Assembly (NCBI GenBank): GCA_029959195.1
Contig: CP114127.1
Coordinates: 1,302,001 to 1,366,000 of the forward strand
Direction: 5' to 3'
Length of the DNA stretch: 64,000 nt
Source of the DNA: Dictyophora rubrovolvata
Lineage: Eukaryota > Basidiomycota > Agaricomycetes > Phallales > Phallaceae
Shown: positions 22,911 to 63,526 of the stretch, piece by piece
Position numbering within the stretch: the first letter of the stretch is position 1
Layout of the letters: the number at the start of each line of letters is the position of its first letter
Notes under the pieces: generated by a model
What the model was told of the DNA's origin: nothing
The model's input: only the letters and a program-made list of their open reading frames with translations
Databases searched by the model: none
Position numbers and translations under genes: made by a program

Positions 22911-23679
22911 TCATGTGCTCGCCGTGGACGCGGCATTCATTAGGAGCCCAAGAAGGCTGCCCATAGCCAAAAGGTGAGCAAGGCTACGGAGAGTTCCATA
23001 CCCGGCCGCATATGCAGGAATGTATAATATAGTCTTAGCGAAGGTCGTTAATAATAAGAAATTTATGCATTTCTCCATGAGTCGTGGATCCGCACCGTAA
23101 TGAGGTAGTGCCAAAGTAATAGCAGCACACACGATGAAGGCTGAAACAGCATGAACTTGAAGGGCAATCCAAACAATTTGCGATAAAGGCTCTTACCCGG
23201 AAAGATCTCAAGAAGATTATCATGCAACGCCGTCAAACGATGGGCAAGTCCCGTTAATCGTTCCTTCACAAGACGTGGTTCTGGTTTAATAGTAAGTAAT
23301 GAGCAAACCATGAAAAACTGGCTCGAACGAGAGCGGGGAATGCCCACCGTCATTTTTGTAGCCTTCGGGATTTCCCAGAGCTGCACCAGTTAATGAAAGA
23401 GAAGCGGAAAATGTGTAAGTCATGAAGAAGAAAAATGCCGTGATAGAGACGATTCGTTGGAAATCGGTCTTAGCATAATTGAGCAATGGAGCCAAGGTAT
23501 GAGAGACGATGCCATTGGGACGAGCTAGCAAGCTGGCTATGGGTATTTGAACCAACGTATTGATGATGACGGCCAGTGGAACACTGATAGATTGTTATTG
23601 TCAATGACTTAAATGCCAAGAGACATGGTCCATGGACATACAAGTGTGCAATGGACTGCGGGGCGTCGAAGATACCCAT
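22911..23679 (-). CDS. MAPEG-like multi-pass membrane protein
   Basis: Exons 23679-23642, 23583-23348, 23280-23197 and 23140-22911 join to 195 residues. Four hydrophobic segments are visible: around VPLAVIINTLVQI, the ITAFFFFMTYTFSASL stretch, AFIVCAAITLAL, and the C-terminal AHLLAMGSLLGLLMNA. Between the second and third is RLTALHDNLLEIFPAF, which matches the MAPEG signature (Arg, then Asn-Leu-Leu-Glu and Phe-Pro). MAPEG proteins include microsomal glutathione transferases and eicosanoid enzymes. Many fungal members are uncharacterised, so substrate and activity are open. Intron phases agree at all three junctions. The short first exon (38 nt) makes the start the least certain part. Confidence 0.75.
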
Positions 23680-35557: not shown

Positions 35558-36335
35558 ATGTCGTCCGTCATCTTCAAAATTACCATGTTGTTGGCTATGA
35601 ATGTACTCACCGTCAAGTCATTCATTCCACCAAACAAAATAACCTCTTCAGACAAAATCGAGAGGGGGACGTTTTTAGATAAATGCGTCACTTCTTTTGC
35701 AAAATTTATTAGTCTCGTATGTCAGACATCGTCGCGCCGCGCGTTTATGTATGAACAGTCTAATCCACATATACTATTTGTTTCAGCCTGCTGTTCTCGT
35801 TCCCAACATCACTCTATGTTTCGTCGTGCTAGCGAGATATCTGAGCATCAAAATCCCCTGGATGGCGAGAATATGTTCTCAAGCAACGGACGATGAATTA
35901 GGTCGTTTGTCTCCGTCATTCCTAGGGCTTTTCGTTCTGGTAGCAGTCGGGGCCTCTATTCGATTACAATGTTACAAATCTCTGGGAAACTTATTCACTT
36001 TCGAGGTCACAATTCGATCGAATCATAGGATCGTAGATTCCGGTCCTTACGCAATTGTACGGCATCCGAGCTATACAGGTTTACTCATGATATGGGTTGG
36101 GACAGCCTTTTTGGTATTCAGTTTCCAAAGTCCGGGTATTATATGCGGATGGGCAGCTTCGTCCCTCATCGTGAAAGCTATGATGGTATCGTGGTTTTCT
36201 CTGATGGTGTTCACTTGGTACTCTGCCATAAAGCGCGTTTATACCGAAGAAGGGAACCTACGCAATCACTTTGAAAAGGAATGGGATAAGTATACCAAGC
36301 GTGTTCCTTATCGATATATTCCTGGGATTTGTTAA
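35558..36335 (+). CDS. ICMT-family methyltransferase, array copy 1
   Basis: Two exons (35558-35716, 35787-36335), 235 residues. The isoprenylcysteine carboxyl methyltransferase family uses SAM to methylate the C-terminal prenylated cysteine of proteins such as Ras and fungal pheromones, in the ER membrane. Exon 1 encodes a hydrophobic N-terminus followed by PPNKITSSDKIERGTF, a signature shared by the whole array. Exon 2 has hydrophobic helices and the family's SAM/substrate region: TIRSNHRIVDSGPYAIVRHP, SYTG, then EEGNLRNHFEKEWDKYTKRV and PYRYIPGIC at the end. An in-frame ATG also lies at 35552; 35558 matches the start used by copies 2-4 (MSS or MSY). It is shorter than Ste14-type enzymes of about 240-290 residues. 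Exact substrate is unknown. Confidence 0.88.
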
Positions 36336-37581
36336 GTGACATGTATGTTTTTGTATGCATTGATAATGTACAATCACTGGATTGCTTATGTTGTGTAGTA
36401 CCCGACGTGCAGGGCTCATACTGAATATTGACGGGTTCACATGTGGCAATCATTGGAAGATCTCAGAGTGGGTCCTTTCTAACTGACCGTTTCCCTCACA
36501 GGCTATTATTGGCCACGGAAGTTCTTTTGAAATCATTCTCTCATTCTCTAATTGAACTATGTATATTAATATAATTGTTTTGGAAAACTGTACAGCTCTC
36601 ACGTAACCTGTTTTTATTAGTCTATAAAATTTTTTACACGTTCGGCACTCTTTCATAAAGAAAAATGAACATATTTTAAACTGCTTCAGACACATGCAGA
36701 TCCTACGCAGATTCAATATAAATAGTGGATAAATGGGCCCAAGGCTATGAGTGTAATACACAGCTAATGACTCATAATTGAACGGTGGTTGAGATGTTCG
36801 TCGTAACGATCTTCGACATACTACCTAATTGAATCGATAAGGATAATTTACCTTTCATCCTAGGTCATTGAACAACAAATATGTCTGATTCACTCAGACT
36901 GTTACGCTTGGAATACTGAATAAAGGTACTGATTCCCGTGCGAGTTCATTGGTCATCTCTATAGTACAAGTAGGATCTATTTACTCAGGCTCACGCAGTG
37001 GCACCATCGGGACTTTTGAACGAGCAGATATATACAAGCGTGACAGAACGACGCCTTGGAAACTTCACACCCAAGTCCATTTTGCGTATTAGGGGAACGT
37101 TCAATTCTTCTAAATTTAAAAATAGGGAACTCGAGAAGGACTTCGACAAACCTGTGTATGTAATACACCGGATCATTGATTTGTGTACATGCATACCAAC
37201 ATATGAGTTCTTATCGTCGAATGCCATATGCCATATGTTTTCTTTTCGGCAGATATTAGGTGCCGGTGTTGAGAATCTAGCAACTAACTTGTGTCGCCGA
37301 ATACAGCAGAATACAGCTCGTGCATATATCGGTCGACCAGTTTGTCGGCTAGACGAAAAACGGTCTAATCAAACAAACGTATTACCGTCGGCAATTCCTG
37401 CAGTTTTAATTGGCTCGTACTGACAATTTGCCTCATTTAAGAAACTTCCAACTTCTAGGATCCGCTGTCAGTGAGAATTTTCTTCCGCGCCGCGTGCAAA
37501 CACGATGAGAAGGTCTTTTAAAAAAAATTTCCTTGTCTTCTTGAACACTTGTTCCCCGTTTAACCCACCTTCCGCCCCAAT
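36336..37581. other. spacer between array copies 1 and 2
   Basis: One plus-strand frame (36998-37423, 141 codons) has no recognised family. The rest is AT-rich. No relic methyltransferase motif was found. Confidence 0.4.
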
Positions 37582-38346
37582 ATGTCGTCTTTGCCATTTC
37601 TAAAACTCTTCATGCTGTTGACGATGAATGTTATGGTCGTAAAGGCACTTATCCCACCTAATCGAGCAGAACCGAGTTCGGATAAAATCGAGACGAGCAC
37701 TTACGGGGAGAAGTACATGGATCTGATAAGAAAATTCACCATGATTGTGAGTAAGAGGGTTAGCACAGAGCAGACATTCACCAATAAATCATTGTAGCCA
37801 GGCGCCATATTGCCTAATATCCTGCTATGTATCGTCCTATTCCTGACATCTATAAGCCCAACCATATCTGCAGAGATATGTCCCACGGATGTCAATCATG
37901 AGCTACATCGTTTGTCTCCTACATTCCTAGGAGTCTTTTTGGTAGTCGCTGCTGGAACGTCTGCTCGATTTCTATGTTATCAAACGCTGGGAAAGTTTTT
38001 CACTTACGAAATCACCATTCGACCGAAACATAAAATCATAGACATCGGTCCCTACGCGGTCGTACGGCACGCGAGTTATACGGGCTTATTTACGATATTG
38101 TTCGGAGCTGAATGTTTGGTATTCACCTCTCAGAGTCCAGCCATCATATGCGGATGGACCGAGTCCAAGTCGTCCTTTTTCGTAATATCACTTATGGCGG
38201 TTTGGTTATTATGGGGAATATATCTCTCGTACTGGATACTCAGCCGAGTCCAGCTGGAAGAACGGAATCTTCGTGTTCATTTTGGACAGGAGTGGGAGAA
38301 TTATGTAAAGCGAGTTCCTTATCGATTCCTTCCGGGTATCTGTTGA
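37582..38346 (+). CDS. ICMT-family methyltransferase, array copy 2
   Basis: Two exons (37582-37746, 37798-38346), 237 residues. Same layout as copy 1: hydrophobic N-terminus, an exon-1 signature here varied to PPNRAEPSSDKIETSTYGEKY, then the membrane core. The catalytic-region motif reads TIRPKHKIIDIGPYAVVRHA followed by SYTG. The usual RHP proline is replaced by alanine and the Asn before His is replaced by Lys. The end is EERNLRVHFGQEWENYVKRV then PYRFLPGIC. It is the most diverged of the six copies by eye. Frame and splice sites are intact, so it may still be functional or specialised. Confidence 0.87.
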
Positions 38347-39148
38347 GGGGATTGACAACGTAAAGCCTACTAGTACGTAGTTGGGTTGTGGGAATGAATT
38401 TTCAGTGTATATACTCGTGCCGTATGTTTTGGGCGGCACTGCCGACCCTGAAAACAATGACTTCAAAAATACTTGAAGAGAGAGAGATTAAGGGCTCGTG
38501 AAAAGAACTTACGTCTAATAAAGAAGCACTGTACATGAGCCCCGTGGCTGTCTTCGACGACGTCGTGTGAACGCTGGCAAACAGGCACTTGCAGACTGCA
38601 AATGTGGCGGAAAGCAAGATATTTCTGCCGGGGAGCGGCGAGCCCTCACTGGCAGCCTATCAACCCGACAGCACGGTTTGAAGTGTGACAAAACGCGTGA
38701 TGTACGTGTGACAATTACCATCTGGTAAGCGCGCGCCTACGCAGCAGAGCCCGTTGTTATACGACATCATGCATCATGCCGGAACTGGATTTTGACCCCT
38801 GGCGAGAAAATCTCAAAAACAAAAGCGGAATGAATTTACTGTCTGGAGTCTTTGTTAGCCACACGGAAAATTACTTTCTGAATGTGAGCCACGATTTTTA
38901 GTCATTCATCACGTCTACTTACTTGGCTCCAGTGCTCCCAAGCCTCCAAAAGCGGGTCATTTGAAGCTATCCAACTAAGCTGAAGTCATCTTCAATGTCG
39001 GAGAATCAAGCACTCGTGATCGATTCATTTTTGCCTCATGATTATTTATTTAAGCCTCTCGCTCGGCGTTAAGACATGTTTGATAAGTTTTCTCCTCACC
39101 TCCATCCGCTTTTTTTTGCATACGCTCTTGGCCGTGAACTATTTTCAA
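38347..39148. other. spacer between array copies 2 and 3
   Basis: About 800 bp with no supported gene. Minus-strand frames near 38402-38721 show no family features. Confidence 0.4.
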
Positions 39149-39917
39149 ATGTCGTCTGTGGCTTTAAAGCTGGTTGCGTTGTTGCTTATGGCTTCGTTGA
39201 CCGTTAAGGCATGTATTCCGCCCAACAAAGAAACTTCTTCGGACAAAATCGAAAGAAGCACCTTCATGAATAAGTACATCCATTCAATGACAAAATACAT
39301 GACCATAGTGCGTTAAATTTGGAGTTTTCCTATTTCGCCCTTCTGACCGCCTTCAATAGCCAGCCCTTGTTACACCCCATTTCGTCCTGTCCTTCGTTTT
39401 ATTATCGAAGATTCTTTCGTCTACATCTATCTATTCGGGAACATTCGCAAATGTATGCCCTCGAGACGTGAATCACGAGTTAGATCGCTTGTCCCCTTTG
39501 TTTTGGACCGTATACCTTCTAGTTGCAAGTGGATCCATTCTGCGCTTGTTATGTTATAGGGCCCTCGGAAAGTTTTTTACTTTCGAGGTTACCATTCGCT
39601 CGAATCACAAAATCATCGATTCTGGTCTCTATGGAGTTGTACGACACCCGAGTTACACCGGTGCTTTTTCCATATGGGGAGGGACGGCCCTTTGGGTTTT
39701 CAGTTCTCAAAATCCGGCTATCACATGTGGATGGGCAACCTCGTTTCCAATTGTTAGGCTTATCATGGCATCATGGATGTTTGCTGCAATGTTCTTTTGT
39801 TTTACTCTGGTTCAGCGTGTCTTTGTCGAAGAAAGAAATCTTCAAATCCATTTCGGACAAACATGGGACGATTATACGAAACGAGTCCCTTATCGATACG
39901 TACCTGGAGTTTGTTGA
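39149..39917 (+). CDS. ICMT-family methyltransferase, array copy 3
   Basis: Two exons (39149-39307, 39360-39917), 238 residues. Exon 1 holds a strongly hydrophobic stretch (KLVALLLMASLTVKA) then PPNKETSSDKIERSTFMNKY. Exon 2 carries TIRSNHKIIDSGLYGVVRHP, SYTG, EERNLQIHFGQTWDDYTKRV and PYRYVPGVC. GPYG reads GLYG here, a small deviation from the other copies. The intron is 52 bp with GTGCGT...AATAG ends. Confidence 0.88.
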
Positions 39918-40599
39918 GCCACAATGCATACATCCATAGAACGGTGTCGAAATACTTTACACCGGTATGTAATACATTGTCTTCGAGTCGGTAATTAACT
40001 CAAAGGTCGTCGGTCTGGAATACTTCGTATTCTTATTCTAATGCATATCAAACCCTTGTATCCATGTTTTGTAATATACACGGTGTTTCTTACGACCATG
40101 GCCAGCTTCGTATTGAAAGCATCGTCATACCTGGAGGTGGGAATATTTGAAATGACCGCATACCGCATTTGTACTAAGCAACAAGAAACGAGGGAGGACA
40201 GCGCATAATATCGTTCGTTTATCACGTTCCCTTACCACTGAATACGCCACTGATGTCGTGTATATCAGAAATGATATATATTTGCAATTTTGTTATTCAT
40301 ACACGTCCCATAGGACGAACTTCGGCAAGTCCGCTTGCCAGAAGCGAACGCATGATCGGTTTACGCACTGGACATTCAATGTTGCCACAGTTTCAAGCAC
40401 TAGCGCGCAGAATGTCTATGGGATCTTGGATGTCGGAAATCTATCGGACTTCGGCAAAAGAACAGCCAATCCGACGCGCTCTGGCCACATCTGTATAAGT
40501 TTCACTGTAAGTGTGGGGAAAGAACGTTTACGGATTTCTGTTTTCTCATAACAGCCCATCTACATACCCCTGACGCCCTCGACCCTGATCCTCCCACAA
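39918..40599. other. spacer and promoter of array copy 4
   Basis: Contains the block CACTAGCGCGCAG (40398-40410) followed by TATCGGACTTCGG near 40442, which recurs upstream of other array members. No gene supported. Confidence 0.45.
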
Positions 40600-41372
40600 A
40601 TGTCGTACAGTGTGGTTCTTAAGCTAGCCATGCTGTTGACGATGGCCTCGTTGAGTGTAAAGGCATGTACCCCGCCTAATAAAGAAACGTCTTCGGATAA
40701 AATCGAGAAAAGCACCTTCACCAAATACGTTCATCCAATGACAAGATTTGTGGTCATAGTGCGTTATTTGTGCCAAGAATTTCTTTTGAAATTGCAGTTT
40801 AACCAAACTAAACGTATACCAAATAGCCAACTCTCTTGATGCCCAGTTTCACCTTAAGCTTCGTCCTACTACTCAGAACTCCCTTGCGCTCAAGCACATC
40901 CATGGATATATGCCCTCGAGACGTAAATCACGAATTAGACCGCTTGTCGCCTTTATTTTTGGGCATCTTCCTCTTGCTTGCGGGTGGATGTTATCTTCGC
41001 TTACTGTGTTTCAAGACACTGGGGAAATTCTTCACTTTCAAAGTCACTATTCGCTCAAACCACAAAATCGTAGATATTGGCCCCTACGGAATCGTGCGAC
41101 ATCCAGCATACACTGGCGGCTTTCTTGCATATGCTGGTGCGACTCTTCTGGCTTTCAGTTCTCAAAATCCAGCTATTACATGCGGATGGGTGGCGTCGTC
41201 TTTGCCTATCAAGTTTATCATGGCCTTATGGACGTTTTCCACAATTTTCTTTAACTTTGGTATAGTGCAGCGTATCCCATTAGAGGAACAAAATCTACGG
41301 GTTCATTTTGGTCAAGCATGGGATGATTATGTGAAGCGGGTTCCTTATCGATGCATTCCTGGAGTTTATTGA
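40600..41372 (+). CDS. ICMT-family methyltransferase, array copy 4
   Basis: Two exons (40600-40758, 40827-41372), 234 residues. Exon 1: hydrophobic KLAMLLTMASLSVKA then PPNKETSSDKIEKSTF. Exon 2: TIRSNHKIVDIGPYGIVRHP, AYTG, EEQNLRVHFGQAWDDYVKRV, PYRCIPGVY. The protein ends in Tyr rather than Cys. The intron is 68 bp. Confidence 0.88.
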
Positions 41373-42634
41373 GGCACGACGTGTACATTTTTAGAATATC
41401 ATGGAATCACTATATAGCACGTATTCTATATAATGCGCCTTTCTTTTAGCGCAGGCGCTGCTTCAAGTAGGCTGTCCGCTGATTATATATATATAATTTG
41501 GACTATTAATAATGTGTACAATCTGAAAGGAATTGGGTGACTTTGGGGTTAATACAATCCGACTGGCGTGCGTAGCCTCACACAAGCATCACTGCGTTCT
41601 TTGTACCTGTCGAAAGTAAGAACCTGCCTAATTATTATTTGAATACCCACTCATCCAATTTTTCCCGACCTTGGTTGAAACACACTGCCCACTAGCGCGC
41701 AGATATCAGAAGTCAGCTGAATTCAGCTGAGGGTCTGCGATTCTCGGAGCTCTATCGGACTCCGGGAAAAATCAATCTCAAATTAGTTAACCTGTCTGGT
41801 TGTGCAGTTATTATAGACCGACAGTCTAAGAGTAATGTCTTAAACGCCAGCTTTTCTCATTGACAATCGTGGCCCGGGGGCCGGGATGCATGAAGAACAT
41901 AGTATTGCGCATGATCTATCTCTAGTTCGATTCAATGAAGAAGTAAACAACTGGCAATCAGAGTAGGTCGTTTCGATTTCAGTCGGCGGACCATGCTGAC
42001 ACCGTAGTCTCTTCTCTAAGCCGGATTTAGCTTTTGTACTATACTATTTCACGTGAACACCTTGATGTTCTAACTTCTGAAGCACCCACCCCGACTCGCG
42101 ACCCGAAGCCGCCAGCGATAAACGGCCTCTTGGGTAAAGATAGTCAGCCAGGGGTCGTGTTATGTAACACCGTTTGAAATACATATATACTAAAACTGCT
42201 AATGCAGATGGCAACACAATCCGAAAAACAAAGTATATAATTGCTCACGGGGCTTCGCAGAGTCCGCTTCAATTTGATATACATTAATATTACATAGTGC
42301 ATACATATCAGCATATTATTCCAGTCCATGTGCATGTGCTCTAGTAACATAGTTTTTGATACCTACTCCAGCTACGCGCACCTTTATAGGTGGTACTAGT
42401 GTGGGATAGAATCGTGTGATTCGTCTTTGGATGGTCTCTAGCCCTTTGTTCCGGTCCGAGCATGCATCCGACACCGCCAGATTCATTAGACTAGGTTTCT
42501 TGAATCTTGAGACAATCTATCGGACTCCGGTGGAAACAACCAATCCATTCTTATTATCCCAAGTTCATGTTTAATTGAAATGGAGATGTTTAAAAACTCC
42601 CTTGCCCCTCCTATCCTACCCCCACTTTCCCAGA
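41373..42634. other. spacer between array copies 4 and 5, with orphan promoter-like block
   Basis: No gene. A block at about 41692-41775 repeats elements of the copy 4 promoter (CACTAGCGCGCAG then TATCGGACTCCGG) with no gene directly behind it. From about 41995 the sequence matches the stretch upstream of copy 6. The copy of TATCGGACTCCGG at 42518-42530 is the one just upstream of copy 5. Confidence 0.5.
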
Positions 42635-43600
42635 ATGCTGTCTACAGCGGCGGCCCTCAAGCTATTCATGCTATCGACCATGATCGCATTGACTAGAAAA
42701 GCACTCACTCCACCCAACAAAGAAACGTCTTCCGATAAAATTGAAAGAAGCACCTTCATAAACAAATACATTCATCCAATGACACGGTATGGAATTATGG
42801 TAAGTTGAATTAATTGTCCGAAGAATTATTTCTTCTGTAATTCTAACCATCTAGCATTGATAGCCATTCCTCGTCATGCCCAATTTTATTCAAAGCTCTG
42901 TTATATTATTGAAAACTATTTCATCGGTACCTTCTCTCTCGAATACATTCGCGGATATATGCTCTCAAGATGACAATGAACTAAACCGCTTGTCGCCTTT
43001 ATTTTGGAGCATCTTCCTTCTAATCGCAGGTGGTGCCTATCTTCGATTGTTATGTTTCAGGACATTGGGGAAATTTTTCACGTTTTCAGTCACCATTCGT
43101 TCGAACCACACAATCGTCGATGTTGGTCCTTACGGAGTTGTACGACACCCAAGTTATACCGGTGGCTATCTCATGCTCGCCGGTGCTTTTCTTTGGGCTT
43201 TCAGTTCCCAAAATCCAGCTATTACATGCGGATGGGCAGCGTCATCGTTGCTTGTTAAATTGATCATAGCATTGTGGTCTTTCTCCGGAGCTTTCTTTTG
43301 CTTTTCTATAGCGGGACGTATTCCCGTCGAGGAAAGAAATCTCCAGACTCATTTTGGAAAGGCATGGGATGATTATGCGGAGCGGGTTCCGTACCGATGC
43401 CTTCCAGGAATTTGTTGAAGTACAACGTGTATTACACTTGTAGTGTAATTCTTACTAATGGTAGAAACTGTGATCGGCGGGGCGACTTGGCGCCGTCGCA
43501 CACCGGATTAACCTCTAATGTTGGTTTTGGACCGACTACTGATATAATAATTTGAAGTCACCTCTCTTCTGGTTTGAGCCAAGTTCCAGGCATCGTTCAG
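41995..43600 (+). repeat. segmental duplication unit A (carries array copy 5)
   Basis: This segment is paralogous to 44080-45690. Upstream, coding and downstream sequence all match at high identity by eye, for example GCCGGATT/CTAGCT, AACTTCTGAAGCACCCACCC and CTTCCCAGAATGCTGTCTAC. Boundaries are approximate. Confidence 0.8.
42635..43418 (+). CDS. ICMT-family methyltransferase, array copy 5
   Basis: Two exons (42635-42799, 42864-43418), 239 residues. Exon 1 starts MLSTAAALKLF and has PPNKETSSDKIERSTFINKY. Exon 2 has TIRSNHTIVDVGPYGVVRHP, SYTG, EERNLQTHFGKAWDDYAERV, PYRCLPGIC. It is nearly identical to copy 6 in coding and flanking sequence, so the pair is a recent duplicate. An upstream in-frame start candidate at 42575 (MKWRCLKTPL) exists; 42635 matches copies 1-4 better. 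Confidence 0.88.
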
Positions 43601-44720
43601 GCTAGTAAGCCCGTTCCTATTGTCAACTGCTGGCTTTCATACTCGAGGGATTTCTTCACTTATGCTGAAATACTCATTTCTCAAGTTTTCAGAATCAAAA
43701 GCGTATCGTATGGTGTGCGGATGCTCTGATTCATATAAATAATCCAACCCGGCTGAGAATTTCAATGTCGTAATGTTGTCGGGGCAAACCCAACCTCTCG
43801 GGTTTAGGGTTTCAATGAATGGAGGCAAATATCGCATTGCTGAAGTCCAATACGTCACGAGAAGGAAGAACCACCTGTCGAAAAGGTTTGAAATGATTTT
43901 GCGCGTTCAAACTTGATTTGCGACGAAAACTCCACAAAATTTGTAGGATGATAATAGCGTAAAGCACCCCAATTGAAGCATATACGTAAATATCAGTCAA
44001 ATGCAGCGTCTATACTTACCGCGCGGACGACGTTCCGAGTTTGTGTGTTAGTTGCGCGACCACATATATATATGTTGACGCGCCGTAGTCTTTTCTCCAA
44101 GCCGGATCTGGCTCTCGTAGTATACTATTTTACATGCACGCCCTGATGTTGTAACTTCTGAAGCACCCACCCGGACTCAAAGCCTCTTGGGTGAAGATAG
44201 CCAGCCAAGGGTAATATTAACACCTTTTGAAATACACATGTTTTCAAATGTAAATACTAAAATTGCTAATGCAGACTGTATTGGCACACAATCTGAAAAA
44301 CAATTGGATAATTCTCGTGGGGCTTTTCTGATACTTGCTATTCTGTACACCTTTTATAGATAGTACCAATGTGGGACAACTCTTATATCTTTGAAGGTCT
44401 TTCGTTTTATGTTTCCGTTACCTAAGAAGGCTTGGAAACCAAATTTCTTTGATAGGTGAACATTTTAGCTTTGTTTTATATTTTTCTTTATTTGTGAGGA
44501 TACAATCGTCGACGTGTTTGATTTGTCTTTGGATGGTGTCTATAATATTTCATTTGTTCCGGTCGAGCGCGCACCCGGCACCACCAGATTCTTTAGACTG
44601 GGTTTCTTGATGCGGACAGTCTAGTCTACCGGACTCCGGAAAATCTATTTCAAGTTCATGTTGAAATGGGGATGTTTAAAGACTCCCTTACCCCTCCCAT
44701 CCTACCCTCACTTTCCCAGA
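43419..44720. other. spacer between array copies 5 and 6
   Basis: The left part is the 3' flank of unit A and the right part is the 5' flank of unit B. Unit B holds about 130 bp (near 44385-44515) that has no counterpart in unit A. Minus-strand frames at 43637-44000 have no recognised family. Confidence 0.45.
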
Positions 44721-45690
44721 ATGCTGTCTACTACAACGGCCCTGGTCAAGCTATTCATGCTATCGACCACGATCGCATTGACTAGAAAAGCACTCACTCC
44801 ACCCAACAAAGAGACGTCTTCCGATAAAATTGAAAGAAGCACCTTCATAAACAAATATATTCACCCAATGACGAGGTATGGGTTTATAGTAAGTTCAATC
44901 AATTGTCTAAAGAATTATTTCTTTTATAATTCTAACCATCGAGTATCAATAGCCAATCCTCGTCATGCCAATTATCCAAGGCTCTGTTATATTATCCAAA
45001 ATTATTTCATCAATACCTTCTCTCTCAAATAAGTTCGCGGATATATGCTCTCAAGATGACAATGAACTAAACCGCTTGTCGCCTTTATTTTGGAGCATCT
45101 TCCTTCTAATCGCAGGTGGTGCCTATCTTCGATTGTTATGTTTCAGGACATTGGGGAAATTTTTCACGTTTTCAGTCACCATTCGTTCGAACCACACAAT
45201 CGTCGATGTTGGTCCTTACGGAGTTGTACGACACCCAAGTTACACCGGTGGCTACCTCATTTTTGCTGGCGCTGTTCTTTGGGCTTTCAGTTCCCAAAAT
45301 CCAGCTATTACATGTGGATGGGCCGCGTCGTCGTTGCTTGTTAGATTGATCATAGCATTGTGGTCTTTCTCCGGAGCTTTCTTTTGCTTTTCTATAGCGG
45401 GACGTATTCCCGTCGAGGAAAGGAATCTCCAGACTCATTTTGGAAAGGCATGGGATGATTATGTGGAGCGAGTTCCGTATCGATGCTTTCCAGGAATTTA
45501 TTGAATTACAACGTGTACACTTGTAATGTAATTCTCACTAACGCTAGAAATTGTGATCAGCGGCGAGGCGACTTGGCGCCGCCGCACACTGAATTGACCT
45601 CTAATGTTGGTTGTCCGGATGGACCGACTACAGATGTAATTTAGTAATTTGAGGTCGCCTCTCCTGGTTTTAGGCAAGTTCCAGGCATCG
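44080..45690 (+). repeat. segmental duplication unit B (carries array copy 6)
   Basis: Paralogue of 41995-43600; the offset between the two units is close to 2.09 kb. It includes promoter-like ACCGGACTCCGG near 44637 and matching 3' flank (GGCGACTTGGCGCCG). Boundaries are approximate. Confidence 0.8.
44721..45504 (+). CDS. ICMT-family methyltransferase, array copy 6
   Basis: Two exons (44721-44888, 44953-45504), 239 residues. It differs from copy 5 mainly in the N-terminal region at the start of exon 2 and in scattered single residues. The family core TIRSNHTIVDVGPYGVVRHP, SYTG, EERNLQTHFGKAWDDYVERV is retained. The end is PYRCFPGIY, with Tyr in place of the terminal Cys of copy 5. Splice sites and frame are intact. 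Confidence 0.88.
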
Positions 45691-46014
45691 TTTTAAAGCT
45701 TTAAGAAGCAATATTCGTCCCAGATGCAAAGCCGTCAAAAGTATGAGAACTGGCATCATCAGAAAAATAGATGAATGTAGACTCTATAAATCTTGCGACC
45801 CGACGTGTTTCATTTTAAATTGTCGGCGTTCGCGTCCGCGGCGTACGGTGAGGCGGATCCTGTACTGACATGCCGCCAGTATGCTGCAGGCCCATATATT
45901 GAGCAAATACCGTACATATGTGTATTTGACGTGACAACCCGATCTCCCATAAATATGCGCAAGAAATCCCAACACCTGTAGAGTACGAACTTTATAGACA
46001 AATCGACACCGCTT
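45505..46014. other. intergenic between the array and the F-box gene
   Basis: Convergent 3' ends. The left portion is the duplicated 3' flank of unit B. No gene supported. Confidence 0.45.
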
Positions 46015-48838: not shown

Positions 48839-50338
48839 ATGTCTAAAGCTGTATTTATTACGGGGTGCGTCGAACAACGACGTCAGAAAATCAGAGTTTG
48901 AATCAATATCTTCTTTTTTAGTGTAACGGGCTACATCGGCGGCGAAACTCTTTCTCAGCTCCTCGCATCTCCCACAACCAAAGATCATTCCTACTCTGCT
49001 CTGCTTAGAAGTGCAGCTAAAGCACCTATTGTGGAGTCTTTAGGCGTTAGACCTGTTCTTGGTACTCTGAATGATAAAGATCTCTTGATCGAGGAAGCCA
49101 GAAAAGCAGATGTTGTCATTCATACTGCGGACTCATCGGATCATGTTGCTAGCTGTGAAGCGCTACTAGAAGGCATGCGAAAGAGAAGTGCTGAAGGAAA
49201 AGAAACGATATATATTCACGTGGTAAAAATTACATTTCTAACGAGTGTTGTTTGATTTTGTCTGATAAAGCTTTGGGTAATCAGAGCGGTACTGGTGTTT
49301 TGATTGATGAAGCTCGTGGAGAATATGGTAAGTTTTATGATGACGCGCAAATAACTTCCCTAATCATATCATTATATCATCTAGCTACCGAAGAGATTTA
49401 TTCGGATCTAGATCCTGATCATATCAATTCACTTCCCCCTACGGCATACCACCGCAACGTGGAATTGATGGTCCTAAACGCCTCTTCCGAACCTGGTTCT
49501 AAAACTAAGACCCACATAGTCCTCCCATCCACAATCTATGGCATCGCCGATAATTTATTTGTCGCAAAGGGGGTTGCCAATGATATCTCGATGCAAATGC
49601 CTGAACTCATTCGGGTAGGTGTTGCACGTGGACAAGGAGGTGTGGTAGGCAAGGGCCTGAATCTTTGGCCCAATATCCACATTAAAGAAAGTATGAGTTA
49701 AATTTACTTTTTCGTTCATCCCCCTTTGAACGATGGACTTTTTTTAAGTCGGAGAAGTCATCGCTTTGGTATTTGAGAAAGCTCTTGAGGGAAAGACGGC
49801 GACAGGTTGGGAAGGTTATTACTACGGAGGTCGGTTTCCTAAGCTCAGTTGGGATGATGCTGATTATCTCATTAACAGAATCTGGAGGTAAAGCAATCAA
49901 CATGGACGGGACGTACTTCCTTTATTGCTAACCACCGGATTCGTATAGAATACCGAGGCCTAGACGCTGCTCGTGTTGTTTCGGAAAGGTTGTCCACCAA
50001 ATATAACATTGGCCAACCCGAGCCTACGATACTCAGTGATGAAGATATAAAAAAATACTTGAAAGGAGTAAGCATTATTTTGTTAATTTCCCTTCGCTTA
50101 GTCTCCCTGATGCTGTTGTATTTAGTCATATTATCTGGGAAGCAATTCTCGTTGTCGTGGGGAACGTATCCGTGCATTGGGATGGAAGCCCACTTATTCC
50201 AATGATGATTTCCTTCGAAGCGTGAGGTCGGTGCCGTGCCTTTTTAATTTTGTTAGTGTTAGTGTCATTTATATGTCCGAATCTTATAGAGACGAAGTGG
50301 ATTATGTTATAAAATCGGATGCTTCCAAACAAGCGTAG
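48839..50338 (+). CDS. NAD-dependent epimerase / NmrA-like atypical SDR, with a frame conflict
   Basis: Exons 48839-48864, 48922-49222, 49285-49327, 49385-49690, 49749-49887, 49949-50067, 50126-50226 and 50290-50338. The N-terminal Rossmann motif is ITGVTGYIGGETL (GxxGxxG), followed by ADVVIHTADSSDHV, an SGTGVLIDEARGEY segment, AYHRNVELMVLNAS and THIVLPSTIYGIADN, typical of extended or atypical SDRs acting on small metabolites. The exons sum to 1,084 nt, one more than a multiple of three. The frame before intron 5 (ending RIW) does not continue into the downstream conserved-looking frame (EYRGLDAARVVSERL) although the intron 5 sites (GTAAAG, CTAAC, TATAG) look sound. So there is a one-base indel, a sequence error or an unusual splice. 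Substrate unknown. Confidence 0.75.
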
Positions 50339-50829
50339 CAGGAATTCTGAGATAGTGAATTTAGTTTTGGTAGTCATGACAGAAATTTGAAGATAAAATC
50401 CCAAACTAGCGATTCTCTCGGGCCATTATACCGTTTTGTAAAAGATTATGTGGGACGTTTGATATTTCTCTATTTTCCCCATTGCACCTGTCTCAGAGGG
50501 TGATTTCCAGCAAGCAAAGTTGTCAATTAGTAGAATGTCGGGGCATTTTTTTCGGCTTTCGGACAGTAACTCGACCCATAAGACCGCTAAAAAATAAATA
50601 TTGAACGAAACCAGCCGAGCTGCCGAGCTTAGCGCGCCGTCCTGAACCCAGAAGCCAAGCGTTGGTCCAGACTGTCTTGACAATCCTATATCATCCCCTG
50701 TTGGACAGACATCATCTGAACAGTCAGTATTTTTTTAGTTCCAGAAAGGAAATGATTTCTTACTTGTGCTTTTATTTACATTTAAATAAAGGTCAATACC
50801 CAACCAACACCCAACAGAAGTTGAACGTC
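50339..50829. other. intergenic
   Basis: About 490 bp between the epimerase-like gene and the pyruvate kinase relic. No feature recognised. Confidence 0.4.
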
Positions 50830-52350
50830 GAGGATCGGAGCGAGTCATGGATACAGGTGTCAATGTAGGTAATCTGACTTCCGAAAGACCGTATTTCCAT
50901 CGAGCCCTTTCTATTTCTAGTTCACGTGGATCTCTCTCATGGTTTACATCGGTTTCACCAGTCTATCATTGACCATACTCCGACTGTACGTTTTCCTAGT
51001 CGATGATCGAGAAGGGTAGATGCTTACCCTGACTGCATACCTGGTCACTATCCATCCCGTAGCTATCGTCCTGGGTACTTGTACTTGCTGTCCAACAGCA
51101 GGTTCTTACAGACTCTCTTACCGCTCTACCGAGAAGACCCGGAGACCCACACGGGGTCAATGAAAGACAGCCAGAATGTACGAACTACATTTCCATCCTT
51201 TCATTCTTTTTCATTCTCATTGAAGATAAAGATTAGCCAAAGGGCGTTCACAATCGCATACCATGAGTCGACTACATCGACTATATATGTCCATTTATCG
51301 GCGTTACCTACTCAATAGGCAGATCTGCTAAAGGTTATGGCACCTTGAAAACGAATATGCATCGGGGATGACATTGTGTTCTTACTCCTTACTCATCCTT
51401 GCTATTGGCAAATCGAGCGTCCGCGCTTGGGCTTTTAACGACGGGGGTCAATCCATCCAACAAGGGGACAATCTTCCAAAAACGCTAGCCGACCTTCCTG
51501 CTTTGTCAGTAACGGGTAAGAGGGATCTTCGGTTCAGTGTTCGCATCAATGTAGATATGATTCTCGTCTCCTTTATCCAGAGCTCTCAAGACGTCTATGA
51601 TACACGTACTGTTCTTGGTCCAGAAGGTGTAAATATCAAGATCACCTCCAGGATTGAAAACGAAGGATTGCAAAACATCAACGAGATTTAGCAGTTGGTG
51701 ATGCCAACCAGTCAAGTTTTTGTCTCTGAGAAGATGTTAATCTCGAATGTCATTTGTGCCGCGCAAATGTTAGAGGTAATGTTTTCTCTGCTCTGAGTGA
51801 ATGTTTATCGGCAATATTCAACGATTCCGTAGTCGATAGCGAACAATCCTCATCTCACACGTGCTTAAGTTAGAAACGTTGCCAATGCTGTGTTGGGCGA
51901 TGCAGATTATGTGGTGTTATTAGGCGAAACGGTTAAAAGCAGCTATCTAGTTAGATCTGGTACGTCAATGTCCTCCCATGTATCAGGTACAGAAGAGCCT
52001 CATGGCATGTTAGATTTCCTACGATGACCTGTCTTCTTGCGGAACGAGGAATTAGTTACCTATCTCTCTTTGAAGAATTGCGTGGCCTCAGGAACCGGCC
52101 GACTGAGACTGTTGAGACTGCCGGGATGGCAGCTGTGGTCGCAACATCCGAGCAGAATGTGTGCGCTTCTTGCATTATCCACCAGTGGCAACACAACCCG
52201 ATTGTTAAGCAAGTATCGGCCTAATACTCCAACCACTTGTGGTACGTGTTTGTCGCTAGTTTGGTTTATGCAGTCAACCCGGAACGAAGAGACTGCAAGA
52301 CAAACCCATCTCCATCATGGTGTTTATCTATTCCGTTACAATAATATGTA
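50830..52350 (+). pseudogene. decayed pyruvate kinase copy
   Basis: Fragments in family order, spread over several frames. LSHGLHRFHQSIIDHT (about 50935) corresponds to the FSHGSYEYHQ region. HPVAIVL and THTGSMKD (about 51050-51170) correspond to the IALDTKGPEIRTG region. NLPKTLADLPALS (about 51470) follows, then DTRTVLGPEGVNIKI, SRIENEGLQNINEI (51600-51690), and EKMLISNVICAAQML (about 51728-51775). VANAVLGDADYVVLLGET (about 51875-51930) matches the NAVLDGADCVMLSGET signature. The C-terminal TETVETAGMAAV and SKYRPNTP, TRNEETARQTHLHHGVY come last, near 52100-52340. Pyruvate kinase converts phosphoenolpyruvate to pyruvate. Key residues are changed and frames are broken many times, so this copy cannot be functional; an intact gene must exist elsewhere. 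Confidence 0.85.
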
Positions 52351-52978
52351 ACATATAATCTGGGACTAGGAATGACAAGTCGACGTATGTTTTTCACCTG
52401 AAAGACGTACTCTAGACTGATGTTGCTTACTTGTTATTATAGGTTGACGATCATTTGCTTTTCATCATGTATTCGGCTCCTCAGTTGAACACTATCAGAT
52501 CCGGAATGACTACCGTCGCTGTATAAGGTTGAATGGGACACAATAACATGATTCGTGCCTTTTCACTAGGGTTGTTGAAATAGCCAAAGGGCCACGATAA
52601 TTGAGGAACAGATCGAACCATTTGGAGAAAGACGCTTCAAAATGGTTCTTTCTTTGTCCATAGTCATTGTGGTTTTAAGTCAACAATTAGCAACCCAGAT
52701 CAGTTCATACTCAATATATTTGCTTGGGCTCGTTGTACTTATATTCAACGAAACGATGGCCAGAACCTTTTTTTGCACGACATTAATCGTCCATATTATC
52801 AACCTTTACTTATTTCCATATACACTGTTCAAGTGGTCCCATGTATGTCACAATATCTTAAAGTATATTCACGCCCGAGAGCTCAAGGTCGGCCATATAC
52901 ATATGACATTTAAATGCTTCGTTTATTGAGTACTACAGGACACATTGCAAATGAAGACAGTTTTTACTGCAGAAGAAC
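52351..52978. other. intergenic
   Basis: Between the pyruvate kinase relic (+) and the protease 3' end (-). A plus frame at 52642-52929 (95 codons) is hydrophobic and has no recognised family. Confidence 0.4.
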
Positions 52979-61403: not shown

Positions 61404-63526
61404 ATGGCTCCTGTACACGTCCAGTTAATAATTAACGGAGAAAAACGTCGATCCAGCACTGGAGAGACCTTCTGCACATTTCACCCAGGCACTGGCGAGC
61501 ATGTTGGCGTGGCAGAATCCGCATCTTCAAGCGATCTACAACGGGCCATCGAGGCTGCCAGTGCAGCTTTTCCAGCATGGGAAGAAACTCTGGCTTCGGA
61601 GAAACGTAGGATACTGAACAAGGCAGCGGATCTGCTTGAGTCGGAGAAATATATTCAGGCGTTTTCGGATTCTGTTCCTTCGGAAATTGGCTCGGTTTCT
61701 TATGGAGGCGCAATAGAAGCTCATGTTGCTGCAAATCAATTGAGAGAAGGTAAGGAGATTTTGATCCATGATATGGTTTTGCTACAACGGCTCATAATGA
61801 AGTGACGAGATAGTTGCCGCACAAGCTGCAAGAATTTTTGGTGAGACGTTCCCTTCGGGGCGAGTCCCCGGGGCTCAGGTTATTATTCAAAGAAGGGCGT
61901 ACGGCGTGGTCCGTCTGTAGTCTGTTAATCTTTACAAGAGAAAGTTGAATTTTTTTCAGGTTCTAGCTATTGTACCGTGGAATTCACCTGTGAATTTAGC
62001 TGCAAGAGCCGTTGCTATGCCGCTCATATGCGGAAACACCGTTATAATGCGTTCATCTGAGGTCTGTCCAAGGACGCATGAGCTGTTTGTAGATGGTCAG
62101 TCGGTAATTTTCGTTAAAGTTCAATCCTGTCATTGAGCCGAAACCTTTTCCAGCGCTGCACGAGGTTGTATTCATCTCTCCCTTTAAAGGCGAGATGGCT
62201 AAATAACTACACTGGCAGGCTGGACTTCCCAACGGTGTCGTTAATCTTATTCATATCGCTCCCGAAAGAAATCCAGAGCTTGTCCCTGAAATAATTGCCA
62301 ACCCAGCTATTAAACATATAAATGTGAGGGAGAACTATCGATAAGGAAACTTTTCGCTGATTGAGAGTCGAATTGGGGATATCGGTCTATTAGTTCACAG
62401 GCGGAGATCGAGTCGGGCGCATTGTAGCTAGAGAAGCCGGTAAGAACTTGAAGCCTGTAGTCATGGAGTTAGGAGGCAAGGCGGCTTCGGTGGTATGTTT
62501 CCCCTAAAAGCAATACTTCTTTGAATTGTTGAGTCGAAGCAGGTTTTGAATGATGCAAATGTCAAGCTTGCGGCTAGGAGTATAATTTCGGGAGCAATGC
62601 TCAATTCAGGGCAGGTCGGTTGAAATTTCAAGTTAGTATGACCGAAGACCGGTAATAATTAATTCTTTTTGAAATAGATTTGCATGTCATCGGAAAGAGT
62701 AATTGTCCAAAGTGGGGTAGCTGACGAATTGATTTCCGAGCTCAAGACATTAGCAGAGAAACTCAAAGCAGGTCCCAACGGAACTGACGCTAACATAGCT
62801 GGAGTGTACAACACTGCTTCAGCAGAACGAATCATTGGACTTTTGAAAGACGCTAAGGAGAAAGGGGCTGAAATTCTGCTAGGGGATCTGACCCACGATG
62901 GACCTTATGTTCAACCTCATATAGTCCTCGGCTATACTCCAGAAATGCAGGCATGGACGCATGAGACTTTTGGTCCAGGTGAGTTTACGTTTCTCGACAA
63001 AGCTTAATAGTTCTTCACGTGGTGCATACTGTAGTTTTCGGCATTACGATTTGCGACACCGTTGATGAAGCTATAGACCTTGCTAATGCGACGGAATACA
63101 CTTTGACTAGTGCCATCTGGACCAACGGTATACATGCTCTGAAGCTCGCCTCCCGGATCCGTGCTGGTAGACTTCCCATATACTAACCTGTGATAAAGAC
63201 TTACTGAATATACATAGGTTCCGTAATGATTAATGGTATATTGAAAAATTATTATCAGCAAAAACGGTATAGAAAACTGACTTTCACTACTTATGTATGT
63301 AATATTTAGGGAGCACTTTCCATCCGGAACCTAACATCGAGATACATGGGATCGGGTGAGTACTTCGATTCATCCTTGATGACGCAATGACAATAGAATC
63401 GCATTCTCATGCAGAGGAAACAGCGGCTGGGGAAGGTATGACATCGAGAACTTTACACAAAGACAAATTTTGGTTGTGCATCCCGAAGGAGTCAAGTTTC
63501 CGTTGGTTGATGATTTAGGGCTCTAA
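61404..63526 (+). CDS. aldehyde dehydrogenase (salicylaldehyde/vanillin dehydrogenase-like), with a frame conflict
   Basis: Twelve exons: 61404-61749, 61803-61908, 61960-62095, 62154-62164 (11 nt), 62219-62323, 62394-62492, 62543-62614, 62678-62978, 63035-63166, 63218-63235 (18 nt), 63310-63355 and 63415-63526. The family oxidises aldehydes to acids with NAD(P)+. Visible: IVPWNSPVNLAARAVAMPL, FTGGDRVGR (cofactor loop, usually TGS), MELGGKA with the general-base Glu, GQICMSSERV with the catalytic Cys (about residue 293), and ETFGPVFGI. The C-terminal GSVMINGSTFHPEP and GGNSGWGRY resemble fungal aromatic aldehyde dehydrogenases. Exon lengths total 1,484 nt, one short of a frame. Exon 1 ends in phase 1 but the conserved frame of exon 2 (DEIVAAQAARIFGE) needs phase 2. 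All later junctions agree. Either a recent one-base loss or a sequence error. Confidence 0.8.

Follow-up and report, generated by a model that had tools for sequence, protein, structure and literature searches.

A tandem array of six ICMT-like genes on contig CP114127.1 of Dictyophora rubrovolvata

Six genes resembling isoprenylcysteine methyltransferases (ICMT) follow one another on contig CP114127.1 of the mushroom Dictyophora rubrovolvata (assembly GCA_029959195.1, positions 1,302,001 to 1,366,000 of the forward strand), which raises the question whether all of them are working enzymes and what so many copies could be for. The window, that is the whole stretch of 64,000 nt, was analysed for gene models, protein families, selection, duplication and surroundings; coordinates are counted from its first letter, and negative results on copies, receptors and pheromones hold within it. 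Judged from the sequence, the locus likely holds six working integral-membrane methyltransferases of the ICMT-like type, arranged in tandem and derived by local duplication.

Gene models, core motifs and selection

The array of intact ICMT-like genes, I1 to I6, lies on the + strand at 35558-45504, and its products are 234-239 amino acids (aa) long:

35558-36335, + strand: I1, ICMT-like, 235 aa; exons 35558-35716 and 35787-36335; PF04140 59.4 bits
37582-38346, + strand: I2, ICMT-like, 237 aa; exons 37582-37746 and 37798-38346; RHA replaces RHP in the core motif
39149-39917, + strand: I3, ICMT-like, 238 aa; exons 39149-39307 and 39360-39917
40600-41372, + strand: I4, ICMT-like, 234 aa; exons 40600-40758 and 40827-41372
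42635-43418, + strand: I5, ICMT-like, 239 aa; exons 42635-42799 and 42864-43418
44721-45504, + strand: I6, ICMT-like, 239 aa; exons 44721-44888 and 44953-45504

Each gene consists of two exons separated by one phase-0 intron at the identical place (70, 51, 52, 68, 64 and 64 nt in I1 to I6, with GT...AG borders in six of six). All six spliced frames are open, and the first residue of exon 2 is proline in every copy. The gaps between successive genes measure 1246, 802, 682, 1262 and 1302 nt. None of the eight open reading frames (ORFs) of at least 80 aa lying wholly inside these gaps gave a Pfam match at E 0.1, so no recognisable gene is located between the copies. Both the six same-strand genes with one intron at a shared place and the lack of other gene types between them, as described in an earlier note on this DNA, were thereby confirmed. 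A tblastn search with all six proteins (E up to 10) turned up neither another copy nor the coding remains of one within the window; its sole strong extra row was I5 against exon 1 of I1 itself, and the remainder had E values of at least 0.34.

The motif EExNLxxHF and the PYR..PG end are present in all six proteins. The latter had been claimed for every copy and held; the other motifs claimed alongside it proved not to be universal: SNH is found in five copies (PKH in I2), IVD in four (IID in I2 and I3), GPY in five (GLY in I3) and RHPxYTG in five. I2 carries RHASYTG (within 37798-38343), the one clear core-motif oddity in an otherwise intact gene. Apart from this replacement, the array proteins contain RHPxYxG and a downstream EE...F, which we take to be the hallmarks of the ICMT family. 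Invariant columns are densest in the two core blocks (18/34 and 16/34), compared with 15/57 in exon 1, 15/68 in the N-terminal part of exon 2 and 10/51 between the blocks. Four or five hydropathy peaks could be seen per protein; Ste14 has six transmembrane segments.

The ratio of nonsynonymous to synonymous substitution (dN/dS) was 0.13-0.22 in 12 of the 15 pairs; outside I5/I6 it is rough, since dS amounts there to 0.96-2.76 or, in three pairs, lies beyond the formula. I5/I6, the only low-dS pair, showed a dS of 0.17, a dN of 0.037 and a dN/dS of 0.22 (Fisher p 1.8e-6, rounded counts), and has clearly been constrained ever since the two genes separated. The purifying selection that the earlier note had proposed to look for was thus recovered, and as far as selection can tell the array would be functional.

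Family membership and possible substrate

All six proteins passed the Pfam gathering scores of both ICMT (PF04140, 43.9-59.4 bits, cut-off 24) and PEMT (PF04191, 28.8-47.4 bits, cut-off 25). The two models overlap on these proteins, and the PEMT score does not separate PEMT from ICMT. The best family was ICMT for I1-I4, with PEMT second, and the order was reversed in I5 and I6. Membership in the ICMT/PEMT superfamily, as suggested earlier, is well supported by these Pfam results; the exact enzyme name is not, because the matches to solved structures are weak and the cut-off of the isoprenylcysteine methyltransferase equivalog NF040696 was missed.

Compared with solved structures, I4 alone gave weak matches, the best to AtTam46 (E 0.0022) and the next to ICMT chain 5v7p (E 0.007). 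A profile of exon 2 placed ICMT 5v7p first (E 1e-4 for the whole chain), aligned up to WDDY and covering the stretches SNH.IVD.GPY..RHPSYTG and EERNL..HFG..WDDY; the two best solved relatives by this profile are ICMT chains. The solved Ste14/ICMT chains (5v7p/5vg9 and 4a2n, presumably from a beetle and an archaeon) share the Pfam ICMT domain and the order of core motifs with the array proteins, but the alignment to them is weak and ends before VPYR..PG[CY]. The match for this terminal motif lies instead at the ends of 8xku and 4quv (AtTam46, delta(14)-sterol reductase). Relatives were also sought in genome-contig and viral contig collections, none of them fungal. The pattern matches in the former (72 with the exon-2 alignment, 37 with exon 2 of I1) and in the latter (seven with the exon-2 alignment) included no relative by tblastn.

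Each enzyme would be seated in the membrane, bind S-adenosylmethionine via the RHPxYTG and EExNLxxHF core and transfer methyl groups to a substrate that is prenylated or lipidic. Among single substrate classes isoprenylcysteine is the most probable, with about an even chance of being the right one. Having several copies would probably matter more for dosage or stage-specific expression than for acting on six separate substrates.

Duplication history and a shared upstream element

Protein identities range from 47.6% (I1/I6) to 92.0% (I5/I6), with 47.6-54.3% for pairs including I1 or I2 and 63.3-68.7% among I3, I4 and the I5/I6 pair. Pairwise scores were 544-1130 in all 15 pairs, against 40-66 for the best of 40 shuffles each. 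Divergence declines along the array, and I5/I6 at its 3' end is the youngest pair. An unrooted tree of the six copies, drawn with a midpoint root and no outgroup, has three inner branches, which separate I1 and I2 from the rest (94/94), I4, I5 and I6 (81/83) and I5 and I6 (100/99). Identities and tree agree with the repeated local duplication of graded divergence that had been put forward for the locus. The following segments belong to the youngest duplication:

42414-43597 versus 44516-45692, + strand: youngest duplication, 87%, about 1.2 kb copied with its flanks
42002-42255 versus 44083-44325, + strand: similarity farther upstream of it, 71%
42948-43156 (I5) = 45034-45242 (I6), + strand: identical 209-bp tract in the exon 2 core, a gene conversion candidate

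In I5/I6, 69 successive silent-comparable codons are without change, a length attained in 37 of 20000 silent-codon shuffles (a repeat with 3000 shuffles gave 0.004). The identical run of 209 columns was attained in 0 of 5000 column shuffles. This suggests gene conversion, with strong local constraint as the alternative; the other 14 pairs gave no signal of conversion. Local duplications made the copies, and the youngest pair has probably exchanged sequence.

A short element is shared by the upstream regions of the last three genes:

40442-40454, + strand: TAYCGGACTYCGG before I4, beginning 158 nt ahead of the start codon
41753-41765, + strand: orphan TAYCGGACTYCGG, not directly followed by an ICMT gene
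42518-42530, + strand: TAYCGGACTYCGG before I5, beginning 117 nt ahead of the start codon
44627-44639, + strand: TAYCGGACTYCGG before I6, beginning 94 nt ahead of the start codon

The orphan may be the promoter remnant of a lost array copy. Upstream similarity exceeded 200 of 200 simple shuffles only for I4-orphan, I4-I5, orphan-I5, orphan-I6 and I5-I6, and was weaker for I4-I6 (reached by 6 of 200 shuffles), about like I4-I3 (5 of 200). No promoter element common to all six copies was found in these comparisons. With at most one mismatch, TAYCGGACTYCGG has five sites in the window, one of them at 62642 and far from the array, against a shuffle mean of 0.10, a figure biased in favour of the element because the pattern was chosen by eye before counting. 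Its core resembles paired CGG half-sites (CGG-N3-CCG-like), the kind bound by fungal zinc-cluster regulators.

Surroundings, rival readings and known ICMT-like genes

The flanking genes above Pfam cut-offs encode a D-arabinono-1,4-lactone oxidase, an FAD-dependent glycerophosphate oxidase-like protein, EF-1 beta, a SWIRM/Myb/ZZ chromatin protein, a protein kinase, an aspartyl protease and an aldehyde dehydrogenase. Two adjacent hydrophobic ORFs on the - strand (22914-23192 and 23289-23594) resemble pieces of one membrane protein and gave no Pfam match. By eye, hydrophobic coding-like pieces without a long ORF were observed at 50800-52500, possibly a broken membrane-protein gene, and a multi-exon gene at 48840-50340, the first part of which reads like a nucleotide-binding dehydrogenase/epimerase (ORF 49195-49698, no Pfam match).

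Published ICMT-like genes are compared here as they appear in the relevant passages of the papers cited. ICMT homologues adjoin the B mating locus in all Boletales examined except Pisolithus (PMC5473757). They have been duplicated there, apparently within species, and group separately from STE14 with its top hits; across two Rhizopogon genomes, many further genes are reported for which ICMT activity is predicted (PMC5473757). Likened by description and not by sequence, these B-locus genes are ICMT-like and locally duplicated, as is the array. The Boletales B locus carries one or two copies beside pheromone receptors, whereas the array has six and no receptor recognised in the window; in Coniophora two more copies lie 130 kb from the B locus (PMC5473757). 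Coprinopsis cinerea also has more than one ICMT-like gene, linked there to development: genes 354499 and 445523 are down-regulated in the snb1 developmental mutant (PMC10949477). Their function is speculative in that paper too, and no array is described in its relevant passages. Three copies are reported for Sanghuangporus weigelae (PMC10803629) and two for Daedaleopsis sinensis (PMC10826855), so that, together with the Boletales and C. cinerea reports, several ICMT-like genes per mushroom are already known. One gene each under the ICMT enzyme entry (PMC12135008, PMC5845502, PMC9498453, PMC10971629), and the entry given as presence only (PMC8664445), point to a single annotated Ste14-type gene in the species concerned. 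The multiples in Rhizopogon and other Boletales (PMC5473757) make doubtful, for mushrooms, the premise of the earlier note that a lone ICMT is usual. No local set in the cited passages is as large as the six genes of this array, and no six-gene ICMT-like array was described in the titles and abstract openings among the matches listed from the open-licence literature.

The Boletales arrangement, in which ICMT homologues, sometimes two, are found directly beside B-locus receptor genes (PMC5473757), invites the reading that the array is part of or near the pheromone/receptor (B) mating locus and matures different lipopeptide pheromones. Within the window, however, neither a STE3 gene nor pheromone genes adjacent to the array were recognised. 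A strict hydropathy scan flagged five ORFs, four of them inside the array, and is insensitive, as exon 2 of I1, I3 and I4 escaped it; a less strict scan picked out 22, seven in the array and 15 outside. Pfam gave no receptor match for 12 of these 15 (all but the ORFs at 2258, 3209 and 4923). In total, 42 ORFs of the window that are not array genes were compared with Pfam, and none matched a receptor. A STE3-like receptor was thus not recognised in the window by hydropathy and Pfam, although receptors split in short exons could escape such scans and the B locus could sit outside the window. No convincing pheromone precursor was seen among the three CAAX-pattern ORFs of the window, counted with no shuffle control: two are out of frame inside I5 and I6, and the third (52642-52929) has no other support. 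The pheromone link drawn earlier is unsupported within the window by searches of this limited reach, and a mating-locus role seems improbable to us.

A better chance, still well short of even, is given to the array genes being phospholipid (PEMT-type) or other small-molecule methyltransferases instead of isoprenylcysteine enzymes. All six pass the PF04191 cut-off, PEMT ranks first among the families in I5 and I6, and NCBIfam matches below cut-off were obtained to a lipid A phosphate methyltransferase (five of six) and methanethiol methyltransferase (three of six). Against it stand the lead of PF04140 in I1-I4, the two ICMT chains as best solved relatives and NF040696 as top NCBIfam match in six of six, though far below its cut-off. 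Decaying redundancy, with one working copy and the others drifting, could be read from the RHA of I2 and the orphan element at 41753; the open frames with GT-AG introns, the low dN/dS in 12 of 15 pairs and the constraint on I5/I6 after the latest duplication make it hardly probable. It is also doubtful, though somewhat less so, that the six are lineage-specific, diversified membrane methyltransferases of a non-Ste14 kind, every one adapted to a prenylated or lipidic product of its own. If so, they would form a co-regulated birth-and-death set, because I4-I6, the three youngest copies, share an upstream control element that also survives at a fourth, gene-less site.

Several results weigh against six working ICMT-like enzymes derived by local duplication. 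PEMT scores above ICMT in I5 and I6, and the ERG4/ERG24 cut-off is passed in I3 and I4 only, so that the Pfam family does not fix the substrate. Solved ICMTs are matched only weakly (E 1e-4 to 0.009 by profile), and NF040696 reached 36.4-48.7 bits with exon 2 in all six, short of its cut-off of 160; this is a weak test for fungal enzymes, since the model was built for bacteria and archaea. For exon 2, a structure model made with the six paralogues was of low confidence (mean predicted local distance difference test score, pLDDT, 50.8). The strict support mark was passed by one of the three inner branches (I5,I6) in a tree without outgroup, and dS is high or beyond the formula apart from I5/I6.

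The array is real and represents an ordinary tandem expansion in a gene family that some mushrooms are known to carry in several copies, and for which the role of the extra ICMT-like copies is only speculated on in the passages cited (PMC5473757, PMC10949477). By itself it overturns nothing. With its compact layout, a pair of very recent origin and a core motif altered in one copy, it offers a convenient test of whether such copies are redundant Ste14 enzymes or act on another substrate.

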